This document shows, one piece after another, positions 4,377 to 35,343 of a stretch of DNA of 42,400 nucleotides (position 1 is its first letter; each line of letters opens with the position of its first letter). The stretch is taken from the IMG/VR virus record IMGVR_UViG_3300020442_000392, positions 1 through 42,400 of that record; one strand, written 5' to 3'. Both the position numbers and the translations under genes were made by a program. This DNA comes from a virus. The notes under the pieces are model-generated. The model did no database searches, had not been told where the DNA came from, and was given only the letters and a program-made list of their open reading frames with translations.

Positions 4377-4771
4377 TGCCACAAGGTAAAGGTACGTATG
4401 GGAGTCAAAGAGGAAGACCACCCATGAAAAGACTAAGTGAAACAGATACTAAAGGATCTTTACTTAGTAAATTTAAAAACTTTATGTCTCTTAAGAATGT
4501 TAATAAACGTGTACAAGAGGCAGCAAAGACTCCATCTAGGGAACAAGTTAAACTTCAAGATTTTAAATCTGCATTTGCTAAAGCTAAAAAAGCAGGTAAG
4601 AAAACTTTTATGTTTCAAGGTAAGGAGTTTACTACCAAAACTAGAGATGAAGCAGTCAAAGCATTTCAAAGATTAATTGCTAAACATGGGTCATCTCCTG
4701 AACAGGTAGAAAAGTCAGCTAAGGAAATACGAATATCTCATGGTATTCCACATCCTAAGAAGAAAAAATAA
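4376..4771 (+). CDS. Small basic hypothetical protein between portal and scaffold
   Basis: A 131-residue basic protein whose start overlaps the portal stop (TAATG). It opens with MPQGKGTYGSQRGRPPMKR, a start characteristic of a small protein found at this same position in many marine T7-like phages. A helical, lysine-rich core follows; residues 75-80 (KTFMFQ) and the TTKTRDEAVKAFQRLIAKHG segment look like a compact folded domain, and the tail is HPKKKK. Function unknown; position suggests head assembly or DNA contact. Confidence 0.75.
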   Translation: MPQGKGTYGSQRGRPPMKRLSETDTKGSLLSKFKNFMSLKNVNKRVQEAAKTPSREQVKLQDFKSAFAKAKKAGKKTFMFQGKEFTTKTRDEAVKAFQRLIAKHGSSPEQVEKSAKEIRISHGIPHPKKKK

Positions 4772-4772
4772 A

Positions 4773-4850
4773 GTGAATTTACGTGAACGTACTCTCAAGT
4801 TATTAGAACTTGAAGAGGAAGAAGAACAAACCGAACAAGAGGAAGAGTAA
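4773..4850 (+). CDS. Very small acidic protein (GTG start)
   Basis: A 25-codon frame beginning GTG at 4773, 1 base after the upstream stop, reading MNLRERTLKLLELEEEEEQT and ending in glutamates. A purine-rich AAGAAGAAAA stretch lies just upstream and can act as ribosome-binding site. It fits exactly between two certain genes and ends 2 bases before the scaffold start. An amphipathic helix with an acidic tail is plausible. Because it is so short, it could also be non-coding; codon pattern and tight spacing are the only support. Confidence 0.4.
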   Translation: MNLRERTLKLLELEEEEEQTEQEEE

Positions 4851-5789: not shown

Positions 5790-7019
5790 ATGCCTGATTT
5801 TCAAGATGCCACTGCGGAATATACTTCTATTCGTAGTGGTTTAAAAAATATTGGAGGTGCTACTGCTCGTCAAGGTAGTGACTCCAGAGAACTATTTCTC
5901 AAATTGTACGCAGGAGAGGTTATGACTGCGTTCCAAACTAGGAACGTAATGATGCCTCTTCATAGGGTACGTACCATCTCTAAGGGTAAAGAAGCCCAGT
6001 TTATCATGACTGGTAAATATAGGGATGCTGCTTACCACACACCTGGAGCACGTATTGCCCCTGATGCAAACGCTAGTCACTCAGAGAGACTCGTCACTAT
6101 TGATGACCTCTTGATTAACGCTCAGTTCATTCCTCGTATCGATGAAGCAATTCAGCATTTCGATATTAGAAATGTCTACACTCAGGAAGCAGGATACGGG
6201 CTTTCAAAAGTAGCTGATCAGAACATTCTTCGTGTACTCACTAAGTCTGCTCTAGTTACTAATGTAGAACGTGCCTCAAAACTCATCAATAATTATAAAG
6301 ATTTTGATGAAGAGGACTTCTCTGCAAACATTACCATTGGTCCCGCAAGTGGTAATTCCGCTGCAAAATCAAGAGAACCTAAGTTTATCGCTAAGGCCGT
6401 TATGGATGCTAGGCGAGAACTTGAGAAGATTGGTGCACCTCTTGATGGATTAATGTGCCTACTTCCTACTGATGTTTACTACGACATCTTTGATAGTACC
6501 ACTGCTGGTTCAGCTACTGATCTCGCTATATTTAATAGAGATTTTGGAGGTTCAGGTTCTATCGGAAGTATGCAATTACCTACTATTGCAGGTATTCCTA
6601 TTGTTACCACCCCTCACTTTGGATCTTATAACTCCGCAGGTACTTGGAGTAATTCTATCTTTAATGTGAGTAATGGTAACTCCTTAGCCGACTCAGCACC
6701 TCTTGCTGCTGGTGTAGGTTCTGGAAGGGCTACTGCTTATAACCTCGGTTCTTCTTATACTGCAACTACCGCAGGTGGAAGTAACATTGGTGCCGATGGT
6801 GGACTTGACGGAACATCTACTGTTAACTTTGGAACTGAGACTAGTAAGATTCGTGGTTTCGTGTTCTCTAAAGATGCTGTAGCAACTGTTAAGCTCATGG
6901 ACTTGGCTGTTGAATCAGAGTACCAGATTGACCGACAAGGTACTCTAATCGTGTCCAAATATGCGATGGGACACGATGTACTCCGTCCTGCAATGGCAGT
7001 AGCTTTAAAGTCTGCATAA
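5790..7019 (+). CDS. Major capsid protein, T7 gp10-like
   Basis: A 409-residue coat protein with the HK97-type fold expected of T7 gp10. The opening region (SRELFLKLYAGEVMTAFQTR, about residues 30-49, then MPLHRVRTISKGKEAQF) and the RIDEAIQHFDIR segment are the recognisable family landmarks. Residues about 290-345 form a Gly/Ser/Ala/Thr-rich stretch that looks like a flexible surface loop before the conserved strand GFVFSKDAVATVKLMDLAVE. Length is close to T7 gp10A (345) plus that insertion. It has its own leader and a strong terminator immediately downstream, consistent with very high expression. Confidence 0.97.
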   Translation: MPDFQDATAEYTSIRSGLKNIGGATARQGSDSRELFLKLYAGEVMTAFQTRNVMMPLHRVRTISKGKEAQFIMTGKYRDAAYHTPGARIAPDANASHSERLVTIDDLLINAQFIPRIDEAIQHFDIRNVYTQEAGYGLSKVADQNILRVLTKSALVTNVERASKLINNYKDFDEEDFSANITIGPASGNSAAKSREPKFIAKAVMDARRELEKIGAPLDGLMCLLPTDVYYDIFDSTTAGSATDLAIFNRDFGGSGSIGSMQLPTIAGIPIVTTPHFGSYNSAGTWSNSIFNVSNGNSLADSAPLAAGVGSGRATAYNLGSSYTATTAGGSNIGADGGLDGTSTVNFGTETSKIRGFVFSKDAVATVKLMDLAVESEYQIDRQGTLIVSKYAMGHDVLRPAMAVALKSA

Positions 7020-7039
7020 ACAGGACTGCATCCATTCTT

Positions 7040-7077
7040 AAAGGGCATCAAGTGTTCGGGCTTGCTCTGCCCTTTTT
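7040..7077 (+). terminator. Rho-independent-type terminator after the capsid gene
   Basis: AAAGGGCA (7040-7047) pairs with TGCCCTTT (7068-7075), an inner CAAG/CTTG stem (7049-7052 with 7061-7064) closes a short loop, and the 3' arm runs into TTTTT. T7 has its main late terminator at the equivalent place after gene 10, so partial termination here would favour capsid over tail-gene expression. Confidence 0.85.
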
Positions 7078-7083
7078 ATTCCT

Positions 7084-26214: not shown

Positions 26215-26543
26215 GGAAAAAAACTGTAGATCAAATAGCAAAAGAAAATAAAGATAAAGATTACCATCATGAACGTGTACTTTCTGGAGATCCTAATTCT
26301 AATAATTATAATGTAGCTATTAGTGGTAAAAAAGGTAATGAGAGATATAGTAAAAGTTTAGTTAAAAAAAATAAGAAGTTACGAAGAACTACTACTCGTA
26401 CTATAAAATCTAAAGATGGTAAACAAGTTAGTGTAAATAAAATTCAAGGTACTGACTTAGGAAAAGGTAAGTATTATATTAGTAGTGATCATAGTATTAA
26501 AAGAAAAAGAACAACAAGTAATCTTAAGATTAAGAAGAAATGA
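26211..26543 (+). CDS. Basic hypothetical protein (cassette, 6)
   Basis: A 110-residue basic protein linked by ATGA overlaps to both neighbours, the downstream one being the large terminase. It has a polar N-terminus (VDQIAKENKDKDYHHERVLS), a Lys/Arg/Thr stretch (KKNKKLRRTTTRTIKSKDGK) and ends TSNLKIKKK, a tail shared in weaker form with the genes at 23839 and 25825. Function unknown. Its codons are more AT-rich than those of the terminase gene, as in the other lysine-rich small genes. Confidence 0.68.
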   Translation: MRKKTVDQIAKENKDKDYHHERVLSGDPNSNNYNVAISGKKGNERYSKSLVKKNKKLRRTTTRTIKSKDGKQVSVNKIQGTDLGKGKYYISSDHSIKRKRTTSNLKIKKK

Positions 26544-28201
26544 ATGAGCTAAAGGACTTCCGCAATTTCTTATACATGTGCTGGAGGCACCTCAACCTTC
26601 CTAACCCTACTCCAGTGCAATACGATATTGCTGACTTCTTACAGAATGCTCCTAAGAGAGGAGTCATAGAAGCATTTAGAGGAGTCGGGAAGTCCTACAT
26701 CACGAGTGCCTTTGTTACTTGGAGGTTACTTCATGACCCTGAGACAAAGGTACTCGTAGTCTCTGCATCTAAGATTAGGGCAGATGATTTTAGTACATTC
26801 ACGCAGAGGTTAATTCATGAGATGCCTATTCTTCAGCATTTGATTCCTAAGGATAACCAGAGGCAATCTAAGATCTCTTTTGATGTAGGTCCAGCTAAGG
26901 CTAGTCATAGTCCCTCTGTAAAAAGCGTAGGTATCACTGGTCAACTCGCAGGATCGAGAGCAGACCTCATTGTAGCTGATGATGTAGAGGTTCCGAATAA
27001 CTCTATGACCCAGATGATGAGAGATAAACTCTCAGAGTCCGTTAAGGAGTTTGATGCTATCCTCAAGCCTGATGGAATGATCATCTACTTAGGGACTCCA
27101 CAAACGGAGATGTCTTTGTACGAACAACTTCCCAATCGAGGATATCAAGCACGTATATGGCCTGGAAGATACCCATCAGAGAAACTAGTTCATAAGTACG
27201 AAGATAGACTAGCTCCATTCATCTTAGAGAAGTTGGAGAAAGATCCTTCAATAGTACAACAACCTACTGATCCTCTTAGATTCGATGATGAGGACTTATT
27301 GGAACGTGAGTTATCCTATGGACGCTCAGGATTCAATATGCAGTATATGCTAGACACCTCCTTGAGTGATGCTGATAGGTATCCATTGAAACTATCGGAT
27401 TTAGTGGTGATGTCCCTCGATAGAGATAAAGCACCAGAGAAGCCGATCTGGTCCAATGACTCATCAGATAAACTCAATGATGTACCAAATGTGGGACTTC
27501 CTGGTGATGCTTTCTACAAACCACAAAAGATACTAGGAGATTGGATTTCTTATACTGGATCAGTCTTGAGTATAGACCCTTCAGGAAGAGGTAAAGACGA
27601 AACAGGATATGCAGTAGTGAAAATGCTCAATGGTTACCTCTATGTCCTAGAATGCGGAGGTATCCAAGGTGGGTACCGAAAGGAGAACCTTGAGTTCCTT
27701 AGCGTAGTCGCTAAGAGAAACAAGGTAAACGTAGTGTTGATTGAGAGTAACTTTGGTGACGGAATGTTCCTAGAGTTACTAAAACCAGTCTTACGTAAGA
27801 TCTATAGTGTTACACTAGAAGAAGTAAGAAGTAATATACAAAAGGAGAAACGCATAGTAGACACCTTGGAACCAGTATGTAACCAACATAGACTTATAGT
27901 AAACAAAAGTATTATAGATCATGACTACAAGTCTGTCAAGGACTATGCAGCAGAAAAACAAGCCAAGTACATGTTGTTCCACCAGTTCACTAGAATCACT
28001 AAGGATCGTGGTGCATTAGCACATGATGACCGCTTGGATGCCTTGGGTATGGCTGTTGCGTACTGGGTCGAGCAAATGGCTGCTGATGCAGACCAACAGA
28101 TCAGGGATCGCAAGAGTGACCTCATGGATCAAGAGCTAGAGAAGTTCATGGCACATGTAGTTGGTAAGGGATACCAAGAGAAACATTTAACCTGGATGTA
28201 A
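26540..28201 (+). CDS. Terminase large subunit, T7 gp19-like
   Basis: A 553-residue packaging motor and nuclease. The ATPase domain shows Walker A EAFRGVGKSY (Lys51) and Walker B LIVADDVE (Asp147-Asp148, catalytic Glu following). The coupling motif region LGTPQTEMSLYEQL follows. The RNase H-like nuclease domain has its first acidic residue in SIDPSGRGKDE (Asp346) and the late HDDRLDALGMAVAYW block. Overall similarity and length match T7 gp19 (586). The T7-type enzyme implies packaging from concatemers with direct terminal repeats, whose location is not visible in this circularised contig. Confidence 0.96.
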   Translation: MNELKDFRNFLYMCWRHLNLPNPTPVQYDIADFLQNAPKRGVIEAFRGVGKSYITSAFVTWRLLHDPETKVLVVSASKIRADDFSTFTQRLIHEMPILQHLIPKDNQRQSKISFDVGPAKASHSPSVKSVGITGQLAGSRADLIVADDVEVPNNSMTQMMRDKLSESVKEFDAILKPDGMIIYLGTPQTEMSLYEQLPNRGYQARIWPGRYPSEKLVHKYEDRLAPFILEKLEKDPSIVQQPTDPLRFDDEDLLERELSYGRSGFNMQYMLDTSLSDADRYPLKLSDLVVMSLDRDKAPEKPIWSNDSSDKLNDVPNVGLPGDAFYKPQKILGDWISYTGSVLSIDPSGRGKDETGYAVVKMLNGYLYVLECGGIQGGYRKENLEFLSVVAKRNKVNVVLIESNFGDGMFLELLKPVLRKIYSVTLEEVRSNIQKEKRIVDTLEPVCNQHRLIVNKSIIDHDYKSVKDYAAEKQAKYMLFHQFTRITKDRGALAHDDRLDALGMAVAYWVEQMAADADQQIRDRKSDLMDQELEKFMAHVVGKGYQEKHLTWM

Positions 28202-28203
28202 AA

Positions 28204-28407
28204 TTGGCAAAAAAATCTGAAGGGGTGGACGTATATAGCGGAGACCGAGTTCCCCCTTTGTTTCCTTATGGTTTACAAATCGATCAATTAAATCAAGGGA
28301 CTAGGGGTAAACCACTGTTTTCCTTATGTTTTCCTAGAAATCCATCAAGTCTTTGGTCTTGTATCATTTGTAAGACATCAGATAAACATTTGTATAACAT
28401 AAGATAA
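28204..28407 (+). CDS. Doubtful 67-codon frame with TTG start
   Basis: A frame starting TTG two bases after the large terminase stop, reading AKKSEGVDVYSGDRVPPLFP and then a low-quality tail. No Shine-Dalgarno is present, and the last third runs into the terminator hairpin at 28371. The first 20 codons look protein-like, so it may be a decayed or atypical small gene like T7 gene 19.5; equally it may be non-coding. The same stretch holds an 8-base inverted repeat TGGTTTAC (28269-28276) / GTAAACCA (28307-28314). Confidence 0.2.
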   Translation: MAKKSEGVDVYSGDRVPPLFPYGLQIDQLNQGTRGKPLFSLCFPRNPSSLWSCIICKTSDKHLYNIR

Positions 28408-28440
28408 TCATTTGTTTGATGTCTTATGTTCTTTTTGTTT
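28371..28440 (+). terminator. Strong terminator at end of late region with two competing stems
   Basis: Two mutually exclusive hairpins precede a T-rich run. Stem A pairs 28371-28386 (TAAGACATCAGATAAA) with 28411-28426, 16 pairs with two G-U. Stem B pairs AACATAAGA (28396-28404) with TCTTATGTT (28422-28430), nine perfect pairs, directly followed by CTTTTTGTTT. Stem B has the form of a Rho-independent terminator. Position between late and early transcription units fits stopping late transcripts. The switchable design could allow conditional readthrough. Confidence 0.75.
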
Positions 28441-28462
28441 GCTCTCATCTATGGTTTTTCGT

Positions 28463-28479
28463 TTGGCACACAAATTGCA
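28463..28479 (+). promoter_or_regulatory. -24/-12-like (sigma-54-type) promoter element 1
   Basis: TTGGCACACAAATTGCA has GG (28465-28466) and GC (28477-28478) exactly 12 bases apart, fitting the sigma-54 consensus TGGCAC-N5-TTGCA very closely. A start would fall near 28490, upstream of the dyad repeat cluster. Confidence 0.5.
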
Positions 28480-28519
28480 ATAAAATAAATTATTGTACCT
28501 GTTCATTAAAATATAAATA

Positions 28520-28632
28520 GGAAAAATTTGCCTACTAATTTTTACCTATGGGCAACTTTTGCCTACTTTCGATCAATCGGCAATTTTTGCCTACCTCGGC
28601 AATTTCTGCCTATCAACTAGGCAATTCTTTCC
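28520..28632 (+). repeat. Cluster of GGCAA-N3-TTGCC dyad repeats
   Basis: Six copies of a 13-base dyad, most followed by TA: 28520 (GGAAAAATTTGCC), 28534 (degenerate, ends TTTTTACC), 28551 (GGCAACTTTTGCC), 28579 (GGCAATTTTTGCC), 28598 (GGCAATTTCTGCC), 28620 (GGCAATTCTTTCC). Two are perfect inverted repeats. Start-to-start spacing is 14-28 bases. Candidate roles are a protein-binding array (enhancer, operator or origin) or a counterpart of the short repeats that flank the T7 terminal repeat. Confidence 0.85.
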
Positions 28633-28696
28633 TCACTTTGATTTGATATATATTCTTTCATATCCATAACTCATTGAAATCATTGATCTTTTTCCT

Positions 28697-28713
28697 TTGG
28701 CATGGCTTCTGCA
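28697..28713 (+). promoter_or_regulatory. -24/-12-like promoter element 2
   Basis: TTGGCATGGCTTCTGCA, GG at 28699-28700 and GC at 28711-28712, the same 12-base spacing. It is followed eight bases after TGCAT by GGTAGG, which would place a start on G near 28724. It is nearly identical to element 3. Confidence 0.5.
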
Positions 28714-28752
28714 TCCTTGTTTGGTAGGTTCGCAGAATTTCAGGTTTCAAGT

Positions 28753-28769
28753 TTGGCATGGGTTCTGCA
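28753..28769 (+). promoter_or_regulatory. -24/-12-like promoter element 3
   Basis: TTGGCATGGGTTCTGCA differs from element 2 by one base and lies 56 bases downstream. GG at 28755-28756 and GC at 28767-28768. A start near 28780 would leave a 42-base leader with AAAAAAGGAG before the gene at 28822. Confidence 0.5.
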
Positions 28770-28821
28770 AGTTGTTCTTTTAAGTTTAGATCTTTGAAAT
28801 TCAAATCAAAAAAGGAGTATT

Positions 28822-29124
28822 ATGGAATCCATTATTATCAATGGTAAACGTATGGTTTCTGCTCATGGCGATCATGGCCAAGTCTTAGCCAAGACTGGTC
28901 CGATCAAGACATCAGGGGCATTTGTAAAATGTAAGTCTGATGCTATCATGAGTCGTAATACTAGGGCATTAGTCAATGGTGCTAATGCTAGACGAAACAT
29001 GACCCTTGTTTATGGTAATGGCAAGATCTTGAGTCGTAAAGAAGCAAGATCAAAGAATGATCGTCTACGGGGTGTAAATGTTTCGATAGGTACGGGTATT
29101 GATCCTAATCTAGGCTCATATTAA
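28822..29124 (+). CDS. First early protein, unknown function
   Basis: A 100-residue protein with a strong Shine-Dalgarno (AAAAAAGGAGT). It begins MESIIINGKRMVSAHGDHGQ and is moderately basic in its second half (NARRNMTLVYGNGKILSRKE, then SKNDRLRG). It occupies the place of T7 gene 0.3, the first gene to enter the cell, where phages often put host-takeover or anti-defence proteins. It does not resemble Ocr, which is very acidic. I do not recognise it. Confidence 0.75.
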   Translation: MESIIINGKRMVSAHGDHGQVLAKTGPIKTSGAFVKCKSDAIMSRNTRALVNGANARRNMTLVYGNGKILSRKEARSKNDRLRGVNVSIGTGIDPNLGSY

Positions 29125-29138
29125 TTTATAGTCTTACA

Positions 29139-29169
29139 CTACATGGCATGATATCTGCATGTCATGTAG
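29139..29169 (+). repeat. 12-base inverted repeat centred on promoter element 4
   Basis: CTACATGGCATG (29139-29150) pairs with CATGTCATGTAG (29158-29169), eleven Watson-Crick pairs and one G-T, spacer 7. The dyad contains the whole GGCA-N7-TGCA element, so it could be an operator site or form a hairpin in readthrough RNA. Confidence 0.75.
29143..29159 (+). promoter_or_regulatory. -24/-12-like promoter element 4
   Basis: ATGGCATGATATCTGCA has GG at 29145-29146 and GC at 29157-29158. The predicted start (29170) falls on G at the foot of a long hairpin, so the transcript would begin with a stem-loop. It sits inside the inverted repeat 29139-29169. Confidence 0.5.
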
Positions 29170-29211
29170 GGTAGACTCTGGTACATTCTAAAGAGTGTAT
29201 CAGATTCTATC
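29170..29211 (+). other. Long RNA hairpin, candidate RNase III site or 5'-protective stem
   Basis: GGTAGACTCTGGTACATTC on the 5' side pairs with the segment ending at 29211 (GAGTGTATCAGATTCTATC): about 19 pairs with one mismatch and a few G-U, and a tight AA-type loop near 29190. No T-run follows, so it is not a simple terminator. T7 early mRNA is cut by RNase III at such stems between early genes. Confidence 0.65.
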
Positions 29212-29254
29212 TTGATTTGATCTTTTACATTCTAATCTGAAAAAAGGAGTGACT

Positions 29255-29536
29255 ATGTGTCCTAAACGTAGACAAAACCTTCACTTGTACTGTGATAGTG
29301 CAAAGCATACCGATGATCAACAGAGTATCATCCATGATTATATGGTATTCCAGGGTGTGCTTAGGTACCTCGAAAAATGGGAGTGCTGGATGGATGAAAG
29401 TAAAGGTACATGGGGGTCAATTAGATTGAGTCCTGAAACCTATAATTTCAAGGGTGCAACTACTTGGAGTAGTGATCCAGATCCAGTTTCATCCTACTAT
29501 AGTTCGATGATAGATGAGACTGGAGTTTTAATATAG
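29255..29536 (+). CDS. Early protein, unknown function
   Basis: A 93-residue protein. ATG 29255 is preferred over the in-frame GTG 29249 because AAAAAGGAG lies at the right distance (the GTG is inside it). The protein (MCPKRRQNLHLYCDSAKHTD onward) has four cysteines and is rich in aromatics (EKWECWMDESKGTWGSIRL), ending in a serine-rich stretch. It may be a compact regulatory or host-interaction protein; there is no recognised family. Confidence 0.72.
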   Translation: MCPKRRQNLHLYCDSAKHTDDQQSIIHDYMVFQGVLRYLEKWECWMDESKGTWGSIRLSPETYNFKGATTWSSDPDPVSSYYSSMIDETGVLI

Positions 29537-29544
29537 TGTCTACC

Positions 29545-29561
29545 TCGGCACACTTTCTGCA
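29545..29561 (+). promoter_or_regulatory. -24/-12-like promoter element 5
   Basis: TCGGCACACTTTCTGCA has GG at 29547-29548 and GC at 29559-29560. A GGG (29571-29573) lies at the expected start position, as also at element 4. Its 5' half doubles as the arm of a hairpin (29548-29558 with 29572-29582). Confidence 0.48.
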
Positions 29562-29608
29562 TAGTGTATTGGGAGAGTGTGCTAGGGTGTACACGTATGT
29601 GTGTACAC
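29548..29608 (+). other. Two adjacent hairpins before the third early gene
   Basis: GCACACTTTCT (29548-29558) pairs with GGAGAGTGTGC (29572-29582). Downstream, the 8-base palindrome GTGTACAC occurs twice (29587-29594 and 29601-29608) separated by GTATGT, so the copies can pair with each other or act as tandem protein sites. No T-run follows. Confidence 0.6.
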
Positions 29609-29651
29609 TATGTTCAGATTAGTTCTATGATAATTAAATATGGAGAGTGTT

Positions 29652-30179
29652 ATGACTCGCAAAAAATTACTCTGCTTGGGTCAGGGTAGAGATGGTAAGG
29701 TATTCATCAATGCTACACTCAAGGGTCTAGATGTAGACGATTGGGAACTAAGCCTATCTGGTGTGATCGGACCTAAGCATGATGGTGATTGTATCGGTCC
29801 ATATGGTCAGATACAGGCTCACTTAGTAGAGTCTATTGAAGAGTATTTTGAACCATGGGATGAGTTGAGAGTGGGTGCCTTGATAGAGATCTGGAAGGAG
29901 TACCATTTGAATGGTATGATAGCAGGGTCTCCAAGACAGGAAGCGTACTTGAAAAAGAAAGTACCTACCCTACATTTGGCAGATAATACCTATGAGAATA
30001 GGGCTATGCTATTGAAGAATGCAGGGCTTAATCCTGATGAGGAATTTAAAAATCCTTATAGTGATGAGCCGTATGTCTATGGTAGTGCATGGTTACATAC
30101 CAAGCTACCATTACATGTAGTCGGGTGGTTCTCTGATTTACCAGAGAGCACACATGAACTACCTAGAAAGTGGAGATGA
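29652..30179 (+). CDS. Conserved early phage protein, unknown function
   Basis: A 175-residue acidic protein. ATG 29652 has GGAGAG 6 bases upstream; the in-frame ATG at 29640 lies before that site. The segments GALIEIWKEYHLNGMIAGSP and YVYGSAWLHTKLP followed by VVGWFSDLP resemble a family of phage hypothetical proteins with a W-x-x-Y/W-H-L-N-x-M-x-A-G motif and a Y-x-Y-G-S-A-W-L ending. In other members a Cys pair precedes the latter motif; here it is replaced by NPYSDEPY. No enzymatic motif is known to me. Confidence 0.78.
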   Translation: MTRKKLLCLGQGRDGKVFINATLKGLDVDDWELSLSGVIGPKHDGDCIGPYGQIQAHLVESIEEYFEPWDELRVGALIEIWKEYHLNGMIAGSPRQEAYLKKKVPTLHLADNTYENRAMLLKNAGLNPDEEFKNPYSDEPYVYGSAWLHTKLPLHVVGWFSDLPESTHELPRKWR

Positions 30180-30861: not shown

Positions 30862-31008
30862 ATGGTACATGGTTTGCATAAAGATAAACCTAAGTACCGA
30901 GAGTACCATGATGAGATAGATTATGATCGTGATGAGTACTTGGAACAGAGAGACCATGATGAATGGGATGATTTCATAAGGAGATATGGACATGAAGTAT
31001 GCAGATAG
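30862..31008 (+). CDS. Small charged early protein
   Basis: A 48-residue frame, ATG 30862 with GAGGGAG 1-7 bases before it. It is very rich in Asp, Glu, His, Tyr and Arg (KYREYHDEIDYDRDEYLEQR). Its last 17 bases overlap the next gene. Short and compositionally biased, but the tight tiling with its neighbours supports translation. Confidence 0.5.
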   Translation: MVHGLHKDKPKYREYHDEIDYDRDEYLEQRDHDEWDDFIRRYGHEVCR

Positions 31009-32892: not shown

Positions 32893-35343
32893 ATGAACAA
32901 AACTCTATTGGAGCAGGAGTATGAACTCGAAGAGAGTATGCGTAAGTCAGGGATTGAGAAGTTTAATAAGGAGGTAGAGAAAGCTAAGGCTAGGGGTCAG
33001 GAGGGTAATACCCTGCACGGCATCATGCTGATGAAACATTCAGTGGATAGGGTAAGCAAGGGTATACAAGATTTCATAAGGAAAGCAGGGACTGGTACCG
33101 CAGAGCAGGGCTACAGGATAGCACCATTCATAGCAATGCTAGATCCAGATCTGTGTGCTTTCTTAACATTAAAGAATGTAGTTAATGCTGTGAGTAACCC
33201 TCAACAGTTTGTAGCTATAAGTAGAAACTTAGGGTTAGTGATCGAAGACGAGATTAAACTTCAAGTGTGGCAGGATGCAGACAATAGAATGTTTAAGATT
33301 CTTCAGGAGAAGATGACTAAGCATACTGCATCAAGACACTATCGTAGGTATGGTTTGATCAAAAGGTGTAAGAAGTACATAGATGTGGAAGAGATGGCTG
33401 CTTTCACTAACAAGGAGAGAGTGTTGGTCGGGTCTAAACTAATAGACATAATGATTAATGCTACTGGCTTAGTTGAGGTACACACCATGTCACATGGTAG
33501 GAAAAAGAAGTCAGTTATAATCACTCCTACAAAGGATACAGTAGATTGGATAGAGAAGGTCAATGAGTTTGGGCAAGTGTTGTCACCTCATTATCTACCT
33601 ATGGTTACTCTACCGAGGAGATGGGAAAACATTCATGATGGTGGTTACTTAACCTTTAGATTACCTATGATTAAGAGTACTAATAAATCATATTTAAAGG
33701 GGATGAAGCACCATGATATGCCATTGGAATACGAGTGTATCAACTCTCTTCAAGAGACAGGGTGGACAGTAAACACGAGAGTCCTAGAGGTTATGACACA
33801 CTTCTGGGATAGTAGACTCCAAGTGGATGGTATACCTAATCGAGATCCTTTGGATATACCACCATGTCCTGCACCACCTGGGATGCAGAAAGACGAGATG
33901 GACCCACAAATGAAACGTGAGTTCATGAACTGGAAGAGTACGGCATCTACAATATACAACGAGAATGCTCGTAGGTTATCCAAGGTTCTCCAGTTCGTGA
34001 GGACTATGGGTATGGCTAGGCAGATGAGTGACTACGATAAGTTTCACTTCGTCTACCAATCTGACTTCAGAGGTAGGAAGTACACAGTGTCCTCATTCCT
34101 CACACCTCAGGGTCCAGAGTATGCCAAGGGTTTACTCTTGTTCTCCAAAGGTATGCCCATCGAAACAGATGAACAGGCAGATTGGTTAGCGATACATGGG
34201 GCCAATTGTTTCGGTGTGGATAAGGTATCATTTGAGGATCGTATCAAGTGGGTAGATGACCATGCAGATCAGATCATAGCGAGTGCAGAAGATCCCTTAT
34301 CGTTCCTATGGTGGAACGAAGCAGAAGATCCTTGGTTATTCCTAGCGTTCTGCTTTGAGTGGAATGAGTTCTTAGAGCAAGGGTTTGGGTACATGTCTAG
34401 GATACCAGTGCAGTTAGACGGATCTAACAATGGACTCCAGAACTTCTCAGCTATGCTCAGAGATCCCATCGGTGGTAAGGCTACCAATCTCCTACCATCG
34501 GATACACCTCAGGACATCTATCAAGATGTAGCTGACTTGGTATTGGAGAAGGTCAAGGTCTTAGCTGAGTCTGGTGATACCATGGCTATACAGTGGAGAG
34601 ACTCAGGGTTTATCAATCGTAAACTCTGTAAGAGACCAGTGATGGTAGTACCCTATGGTGGTACGAGACACTCGTGCCGTGGGTATGTGTTACAGTACCT
34701 CAAGGATGAGTTTACCAAGGGTGAAGTAAATCCTTGGGCACAAGAGGACTTCGATATGTTTCTCCCATCATTCTGGTTATCTCAGATACTATGGGATGCC
34801 ATTGGCGAGATCGTGATTGGTGCTCGTGAGTGTATGAAGTGGATACAGGATTGTTCTTCAATCGTAGCGAAGGAAGATAAACCTTTGGTCTGGAAGACAC
34901 CTACTAATTTCGTAGTACATCAGGAGTACTTTGATTATAAAGAACGTAGGATACATACATACATAGATGGTACATTGGTCAAGCCATTGCTCAGAGAGCA
35001 CAATTCTAAAATGGACACCTTCCGTAATAGGAATGGTAGTGCTCCTAATTTTGTACACTCTCTCGATGCTTCGCACTTGACATTCAGTGTGCATGAATGT
35101 AATAAGTATGGGGTCACGGATTACTCTATGATCCATGACTCCTATGGTGTACATGCTCACCATGTACCGAGAATGTCTCGGTCATTGAGGGAAGCCTTTA
35201 GTGACATGTACAAAAAAAATAATGTTATCAATAGTTTCAAAGAAGATGCAGAGGAATCTGTTGGTAAGGATATGCCTGATCCACCTGAGATGGGTAGCTT
35301 GGATATAGATGCAGTGATAGATGCTACCTATTTCTTTGCTTGA
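32893..35343 (+). CDS. Single-subunit DNA-directed RNA polymerase, T7 gp1-like
   Basis: An 816-residue T7-type RNA polymerase that transcribes middle and late genes. Catalytic Asp509 is in QLDGSNNGLQNFSAMLRD, Lys580 and Tyr588 in KRPVMVVPYGG (the T7 K631/Y639 pair with the same spacing of 8), and Asp749 in MIHDSYGVHA. Other landmarks are QSDFRGRKYTVSSF and PNFVHSLDASHL. The T7 enzyme has 883 residues; most of the difference is in the N-terminal and promoter-reading part, so its promoter probably differs from T7's. No good Shine-Dalgarno precedes ATG 32893, but the N-terminal LLEQEYELEESMRKSGIEKF fits the family, which supports this start. Confidence 0.97.
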   Translation: MNKTLLEQEYELEESMRKSGIEKFNKEVEKAKARGQEGNTLHGIMLMKHSVDRVSKGIQDFIRKAGTGTAEQGYRIAPFIAMLDPDLCAFLTLKNVVNAVSNPQQFVAISRNLGLVIEDEIKLQVWQDADNRMFKILQEKMTKHTASRHYRRYGLIKRCKKYIDVEEMAAFTNKERVLVGSKLIDIMINATGLVEVHTMSHGRKKKSVIITPTKDTVDWIEKVNEFGQVLSPHYLPMVTLPRRWENIHDGGYLTFRLPMIKSTNKSYLKGMKHHDMPLEYECINSLQETGWTVNTRVLEVMTHFWDSRLQVDGIPNRDPLDIPPCPAPPGMQKDEMDPQMKREFMNWKSTASTIYNENARRLSKVLQFVRTMGMARQMSDYDKFHFVYQSDFRGRKYTVSSFLTPQGPEYAKGLLLFSKGMPIETDEQADWLAIHGANCFGVDKVSFEDRIKWVDDHADQIIASAEDPLSFLWWNEAEDPWLFLAFCFEWNEFLEQGFGYMSRIPVQLDGSNNGLQNFSAMLRDPIGGKATNLLPSDTPQDIYQDVADLVLEKVKVLAESGDTMAIQWRDSGFINRKLCKRPVMVVPYGGTRHSCRGYVLQYLKDEFTKGEVNPWAQEDFDMFLPSFWLSQILWDAIGEIVIGARECMKWIQDCSSIVAKEDKPLVWKTPTNFVVHQEYFDYKERRIHTYIDGTLVKPLLREHNSKMDTFRNRNGSAPNFVHSLDASHLTFSVHECNKYGVTDYSMIHDSYGVHAHHVPRMSRSLREAFSDMYKKNNVINSFKEDAEESVGKDMPDPPEMGSLDIDAVIDATYFFA

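Follow-up and report, generated by a model that had tools for sequence, protein, structure and literature searches.

Candidate host sigma-54 promoters at the left genome end of an uncultured T7-like phage

Does a T7-like phage begin its infection from promoters of the host sigma-54 polymerase? In T7-like phages, the standard example, early transcription by the housekeeping polymerase is unconditional, with the A1–A3 promoters of T7 being host sigma-70 early promoters at the left genome end, and sigma-54 promoters need an ATP-driven activator to fire. The question is raised by five −24/−12-type elements ahead of the first early genes of the 42.4 kb uncultured virus record IMGVR_UViG_3300020442_000392 (hereafter the window, the whole stretch of 42,400 nucleotides that we analyzed), which the original prediction had read as sigma-54 promoters.

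The window has T7-like gene order and the hallmarks of the Autographiviridae, namely a single-subunit RNA polymerase, T7-type replication and packaging genes, and their arrangement. The final gene before the genome end encodes the terminase large subunit, or DNA maturase B (26540–28201, + strand). Downstream of it come a 620 bp gap, the small early genes, the RNA polymerase gene, and replication and virion genes. Early gene 1 (28822–29124, +) encodes 100 amino acids without a family match and is 81–97% identical to its relatives, while early genes 2 and 3 occupy 29249–29536 and 29640–30179 (both +). The T7-type polymerase (32893–35343, +) has its closest isolate counterpart in Pseudomonas phage LUZ100 (37.5% identity) and is 78–98% identical to those of the uncultured relatives L001–L009. 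The termini of the window share an overlap of ~100 bp with one mismatch seen, which suggests that the assembly is probably circularly permuted and that the true genome end falls within the 620 bp gap. No sigma-54 or activator gene was found in the phage or its relatives, and a search of genome contigs with the phage RNA polymerase returned no relative. A likely intrinsic terminator (AAAGGGCA..TGCCCTTTTT, 7020–7083) follows the gene at 5790–7019. Among its early genes, L008 also carries a tRNA-Tyr gene (4716–4802), shortly 3′ of a hairpin element and missing from the window, for which alpha- and gammaproteobacterial genomes gave weak matches (best 82% over 61 nt).

The left genome end was located by comparison with LUZ100, whose mapped terminal repeat starts 13 bp 5′ of a C-run with GGTATAGCG directly ahead. 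The window counterpart reads GTATATAGCGGAGACC then GAGTTCCCCC, and because it matches the sequence pattern at the mapped end of LUZ100, we placed the left end, as the start of the direct terminal repeat with the C-run TTCCCCC, near 28239 (28239–28256, +; approximate, ±15 bp). Measured from this inferred end, the first three −24/−12 sites lie ~226, 460 and 516 bp inside the genome and gene 1 at ~583 bp; the early host promoters of T7 occupy the same place, just inside the left end. In L026, L033, L103, L129, L130 and L139, the first site is just ~30–45 bp from the left end inferred from the C-run. Directly 3′ of the terminase gene there is a strongly conserved AAAAATCTGAGGGGGTA-type string (28210–28235, and likewise in the left stretches of relatives), which is probably a genome-end or packaging signal of these T7-like phages.

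Searching both strands of the 42.4 kb for GGCAY-N5-YTGCA gave exactly five matches, all on the + strand (28465, 28699, 28755, 29145 and 29547; the sites are numbered from two bases earlier, 28463, 28697, 28753, 29143 and 29545), whereas dinucleotide shuffles of the window averaged 0.25 matches and never exceeded 2. The distance from GG to GC was 12 in all five, so the claim of five exactly spaced elements was borne out. Their proposed restriction to the non-coding gaps before the first three early genes held as well, as all five fell outside open reading frames (gaps 28202–28821, 29125–29248 and 29537–29639) and did not recur in later intergenic regions of the window. When coding and non-coding matches were counted, as had been suggested, the five strict matches were non-coding and a sixth, relaxed match at 30864 was coding, overlapping the start of a small open reading frame (M-V/A-H-G-L-H-K-D). 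A GG or GGG had been described at the expected transcription start in at least three cases, and we found G or GG ~12 bases 3′ of the −12 C in three of the five (28724, 29170 and 29572). Scoring was based on a position-specific matrix built from 29 ChIP-supported Salmonella sigma-54 sites (training scores 15.9–23.0; PMC3844500). The five sites took ranks 1–5 genome-wide, with scores of 20.3 (29144), 20.0 (28464), 17.9 (28754), 16.5 (28698) and 14.2 (29546), and the next-best site in the genome scored 11.1. They agree with the extended consensus TGGCAYR-N4-TTGCW, four within the training range and the one at 29546 below it. The top score across 20 shuffled windows was 17.3, such that individual scores are less telling than the occurrence of the five top sites within 1.1 kb.

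Within the 620 bp gap, site 1 (TTGGCACACAAATTGCAAT, 28463–28481, +; score 20.0, predicted start ~28490) is conserved in L001, L006, L013 and L016 and absent from L008 and L017. Site 2 (TTGGCATGGCTTCTGCATC, 28697–28715, +; score 16.5, predicted start ~28724, at a GG) has equivalents in L001, L002, L006, L008, L012, L016 and L017, several with an altered spacer; in the alignment, GGCAY and TGCA are kept while the spacer reads GGCTT in the window, GGCAC in L002, GCAGA in L017 and CCCAA in L008. Site 3 (TTGGCATGGGTTCTGCAAG, 28753–28771, +; score 17.9) has its predicted start at ~28780, 42 nt 5′ of the gene 1 ATG, and is separated from site 2 by 56 bp, as in L002, L006 and L012. Sites 1–3 thereby combine a non-coding position, orientation toward a gene and conservation around a free spacer, a combination that the site at 29545 lacks.

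Five imperfect dyads, TAGGCAA-N3-TTGCCTA (28518–28634), form a clade-specific array ~60–240 bp upstream of sites 2 and 3. Copies of TGCCTA number five in the left stretch of the window and up to seven in its clade vs. ~0.3 expected, with zero copies in two members of the clade and one diverged dyad left in L017. Enrichment of TGCCTA was observed only in the two clades without sigma-70 promoters, the L114 clade (L114–L118) having 2–3 copies vs. 0.7 expected. Activator sites are commonly found ~70–150 bp upstream of sigma-54 promoters (PMC3844500), and the array is, judged from sequence, the best candidate for the binding (enhancer) site of an activator; alternatively, it may represent an array of left-end repeats. 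FlbD-type flagellar activator sites were also considered for the dyads, but the search gave no usable consensus for them. Between the dyads and site 2, the alignment of relatives shows a conserved A+T-rich stretch (TTTGATT..TATATAT..TTTCA..TTGAAATCATTGAT; 28635–28696, +), and the leader of gene 1 contains a boxA-like element (GATCTTTGAAA, 28789–28799, +; GATCTTTGACAATC in L006 and GTTCTTTGACAATC in L008).

We assessed whether the element extends to other T7-like phages using searches based on the RNA polymerase, gene 1 and the terminase, which yielded 281 sequences, the window included; 157 non-redundant stretches, each covering at most 1500 bp past the terminase stop, were compared. TGGCAY-N5-TTGCW occurred 56 times in 33 of the 157 stretches, and any other spacer from 0 to 12 gave at most 3 occurrences. 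With the slightly wider TGGCAY-N5-YTGCW, the density reached 46 per 100 kb within the leftmost 900 bp vs. 1.1 elsewhere, with 49 occurrences on the + and 13 on the − strand. When spaced 4-mers were enumerated in 112 non-coding gaps without reference to the motif, the top two groups were the end signal AAAATCTGAGGGGGTA and this −24/−12 element, and positions left free by the search followed the sigma-54 preferences of the Salmonella table (T at −26 in 58/60, R at −20 in 54/60, A or T at −11 in 60/60). On the terminase tree, the site was present in 34 of 141 rows, clustered in the clades of the window, L114, L028 and L033 along with scattered others, and well-supported branches require at least 11 changes of site presence.

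No TTGACA/TATAAT promoter (at least 11 of 12 positions) was detected in the left-end stretches of the window and L114 clades, which may also be compatible with a divergent host promoter. The clades of L028, L033, L038 and L127 mostly have one or more sigma-70 promoters before the early genes, often matching 12 of 12, so the sites in the L028 and L033 clades are not the sole early promoters. Sites were absent from the left gap in all 56 distant T7-like loci that a terminase search identified in bacterial and archaeal genome assemblies, from the left-gap position in the isolates LUZ100, Lo5R7ANS, CRP-125, ProddE, RHEph01, ICP3, HTVC019P and others, and from Cobavirinae isolates near the array-bearing L466. 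The host genera of LUZ100, RHEph01, Lo5R7ANS and ProddE carry rpoN. In L114 (6459–6514) and the equivalent positions of L115–L118, two sites stand face to face ~40 bp apart (+ then −), in 5/5 members.

The two sites between the early genes behaved differently. The fourth (29143–29161) lies in the first of two RNA hairpins at 29139–29204 (+; z −6.4), an element with two 12-bp stems (29138–29205) that is equally strong in its L008 and L002 equivalents and in which four pairs are kept by compensatory change; the −24/−12 site is missing at this position in L008, L002, L012 and L017. The fifth (29545–29563) lies in the first of two hairpins at 29545–29609 (+; z −4.2), where its −24 half forms one side of a conserved hairpin; L008 and both L002 copies have lost the −12 GC. 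Because the hairpins persist in relatives lacking the −12 block, a role in processed or structured early RNA is more probable for 29143 and 29545 than promoter function, although the site at 29143 has the highest matrix score, such that a double role as hairpin and promoter may apply there. The sigma-54 reading is thus well supported at 28463, 28697 and 28753 and doubtful at 29143 and 29545, and the expected conservation in relatives was found for the left-end sites, with both blocks kept around a free spacer, but not for the other two, which lose the −12 block.

Between early genes, one or two hairpins that share the string AGTGTGCTAG..TGTAC recur as a module, with compensatory changes (29139–29204 and 29546–29609; 781–849, 933–990 and 1258–1315 in L002; 4325–4392 in L008), and is a possible RNase III or antitermination element. 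BoxA-like sequences, G[AT]TCTTTGACAATC and variants, occur directly 5′ of early-gene ribosome-binding sites and 3′ of hairpins (28789, 29217 and 29621; 1331 and 1757 in L006; 3978 and 4395 in L008), possibly as an rrn-like antitermination signal. The hairpins and the boxA-like GATCTTTGACAATC between early genes resemble early-operon leaders of the RNase III or boxA type, but differ in that the phage hairpins have no significant Rfam match, a search of the early region against Rfam having returned nothing significant.

To determine the distribution of such sites beyond this family, IMG/VR was scanned twice for two TGGCAY-N5-TTGCA sites 25–86 bp apart, each scan giving at least 120 stretches, and at least 188 new loci (L352–L539) were obtained; given the base composition and the collection size, we infer that chance alone would produce ~1 such pair. 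In the 188 new loci among the matches listed, the N5 form occurred 679 times and other spacers 0–21 times, of which only the excess of ~300 over ~376 is independent, since each locus was chosen for having two N5 sites. A reversed-pattern control gave 1 match vs. more than 100 for the motif in 15 whole records. T7-like terminases were present in only 2 of the 188 loci among the matches listed, and, in the loci examined, a terminase gene lay near the array in L353, L354, L388, L445 and L466. The presence of tandem sites in at least 188 other viral stretches suggests that such sites may occur widely.

Many viral contigs unrelated to T7-like phages carry tandem, often very regular arrays of the sigma-54 type with a period of 26–28 or 47–57 bp (e.g. 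18–256 in L354, 5481–5579 in L388, 3440–3622 in L358, 3912–4051 in L445 and 3802–4070 in L447). Some arrays form back-to-back or face-to-face pairs, and several adjoin a terminase gene and a C/G-rich run. The large contigs L422 (141 kb), L413 (223 kb), L383 (148 kb) and L377 (94 kb) have 13–19 scattered sites, as if many operons used them, and many of those in L413 are palindromic face-to-face pairs with a 2-bp gap. A DNA search for isolates related to the other array-bearing contigs returned nothing useful.

Sites that bind sigma-54 polymerase could nevertheless act as decoys, titrating sigma-54 or holding a stable closed complex at the entering genome end. Dense arrays with a 26–28 or 47 bp period, together with sites on either strand, in L033, L139 and numerous further viral contigs would fit such a role, and sigma-54 polymerase remains in the closed complex without an activator, according to PMC2680985 and PMC9770992. 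We nonetheless consider decoys unlikely: the left-end sites of the window clade are all directed at early genes, the last predicted start being 42 nt before the gene 1 ATG, and across 150 non-redundant array loci among the matches listed, 229 of 305 sites face a same-strand open reading frame vs. 60% of random non-coding positions, with 52 loci favoring the ORF-facing direction vs. 8. Somewhat less probable still is that the sites are targets of another protein acting at the genome end, as terminase, packaging or replication repeats, and resemble sigma-54 promoters fortuitously. This idea is kept alive by the position of the sites near the genome end and the terminase gene, by the proximity of arrays to terminase genes in the five loci listed above, and by the repeat arrays that left ends of T7-like phages generally bear. 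However, the motif keeps sigma-54 degeneracy (R at −20, T-rich from −18 to −14) in phages with unrelated terminases, its distance to the end varies, copies are scattered across contigs of 94–223 kb, and the 56 T7-like assembly loci and the isolates tested have homologous terminases yet no left-gap sites.

The phage encodes a T7-type RNA polymerase, and the original prediction had itself raised the alternative that the sites are promoters for this enzyme. We regard it as very improbable because the motif is restricted to the left end and is common to clades whose polymerases are only 42–48% identical to that of the window. Promoters of this kind are spread genome-wide, as phi1–phi8 are in LUZ100, and would have copies before middle and late genes, whereas all five sites fall within 28465–29561 and no genome-wide promoter motif for the phage polymerase was found in the later gaps. 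Two conserved blocks around a free spacer are also unlike a compact T7-type promoter, and the motif occurs in viral contigs with no such polymerase found nearby. That the five matches reflect only hairpin arms or chance holds in part for 29143 and 29545, whose hairpins show compensatory changes or loss of the −12 block, but as a general account it is barely credible. Two of the three left-end sites were folded and were not strongly structured (z +1.1 and −1.7), and spacing statistics over many phages exclude chance; the explanation was rejected for the left-end sites on the N5-only spacing and the motif-blind recovery of the element.

We therefore favor, with a probability of roughly 0.7 and on the evidence of sequence comparisons, the reading of the sites at 28463, 28697 and 28753 as promoters of the host sigma-54 (RpoN) RNA polymerase that drive early transcription with a host activator. 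The sites, their spacing, conservation and position, and the lack of a consensus sigma-70 promoter support this reading, from which we infer sigma-54 binding, productive transcription and the role of the dyads. After phage entry, host sigma-54 polymerase would bind the left-end sites and form a closed complex, which a host AAA+ enhancer-binding protein, either already active or activated by the infection, would open. Transcription would then proceed from ~28490, 28724 and 28780 through gene 1 and the early operon as far as the gene for the phage RNA polymerase, with the dyad array at 28518–28634 receiving the activator. Since the phage has no gene for either sigma-54 or an activator, the host must supply both. 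An attractive candidate for the trigger is the phage-shock activator PspF, which controls sigma-54-dependent psp genes that in E. coli are strongly induced by PhiX174 and weakly by T4 and lambda (PMC12795941). Sites on the − strand in some clades, including the face-to-face pairs of L114, count against simple early promoters, as do the T7-like isolates LUZ100, RHEph01, Lo5R7ANS and ProddE, which have no such sites.

The arrangement is similar to that of the host sigma-70 early promoters of T7-like phages (P1–P2 in LUZ100, and the promoter annotated in ICP3), which are likewise in tandem, some hundreds of bp in from the left end, ahead of the first early gene and upstream of the phage RNA polymerase gene, but differs in that the window elements are of the −24/−12 type and the clade has no TTGACA/TATAAT. 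With the RpoN promoters of Salmonella pspA, glnA and prpB (PMC3844500), the window sites share TGGCAYR-N4-TTGCW, a GG-to-GC distance of 12 bp, the score range in four of five cases and candidate dyads upstream, whereas they differ in forming tandem arrays on a phage that encodes neither sigma-54 nor an activator. No sigma-54 promoters for phage early genes were found in the open-access papers searched, in which RpoN is tied to phages via receptors and metabolism (PMC8744999, PMC11877940), not as an early-gene sigma factor. A Pectobacterium phage early protein called a sigma-54 factor (PMC7693777) was set aside, being a weak HHpred match (E 0.67) and a protein rather than promoters.

Since sigma-54 promoters depend on an activator, such an arrangement would link the onset of infection to host signaling, and it would be a natural test case for how physiology gates lytic infection in the sea. 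It is a tentative proposition, somewhat short of an even chance, that a large and mostly uncultured set of phages, T7-like and others, puts the start of infection under the control of host sigma-54 and AAA+ activators that sense nitrogen, envelope or phage-shock signals. If true, early expression would be conditional on host physiology or triggered by damage from DNA entry itself. With so simple a spacing signature, it should be feasible to survey all phage genomes and to predict which hosts must have rpoN.
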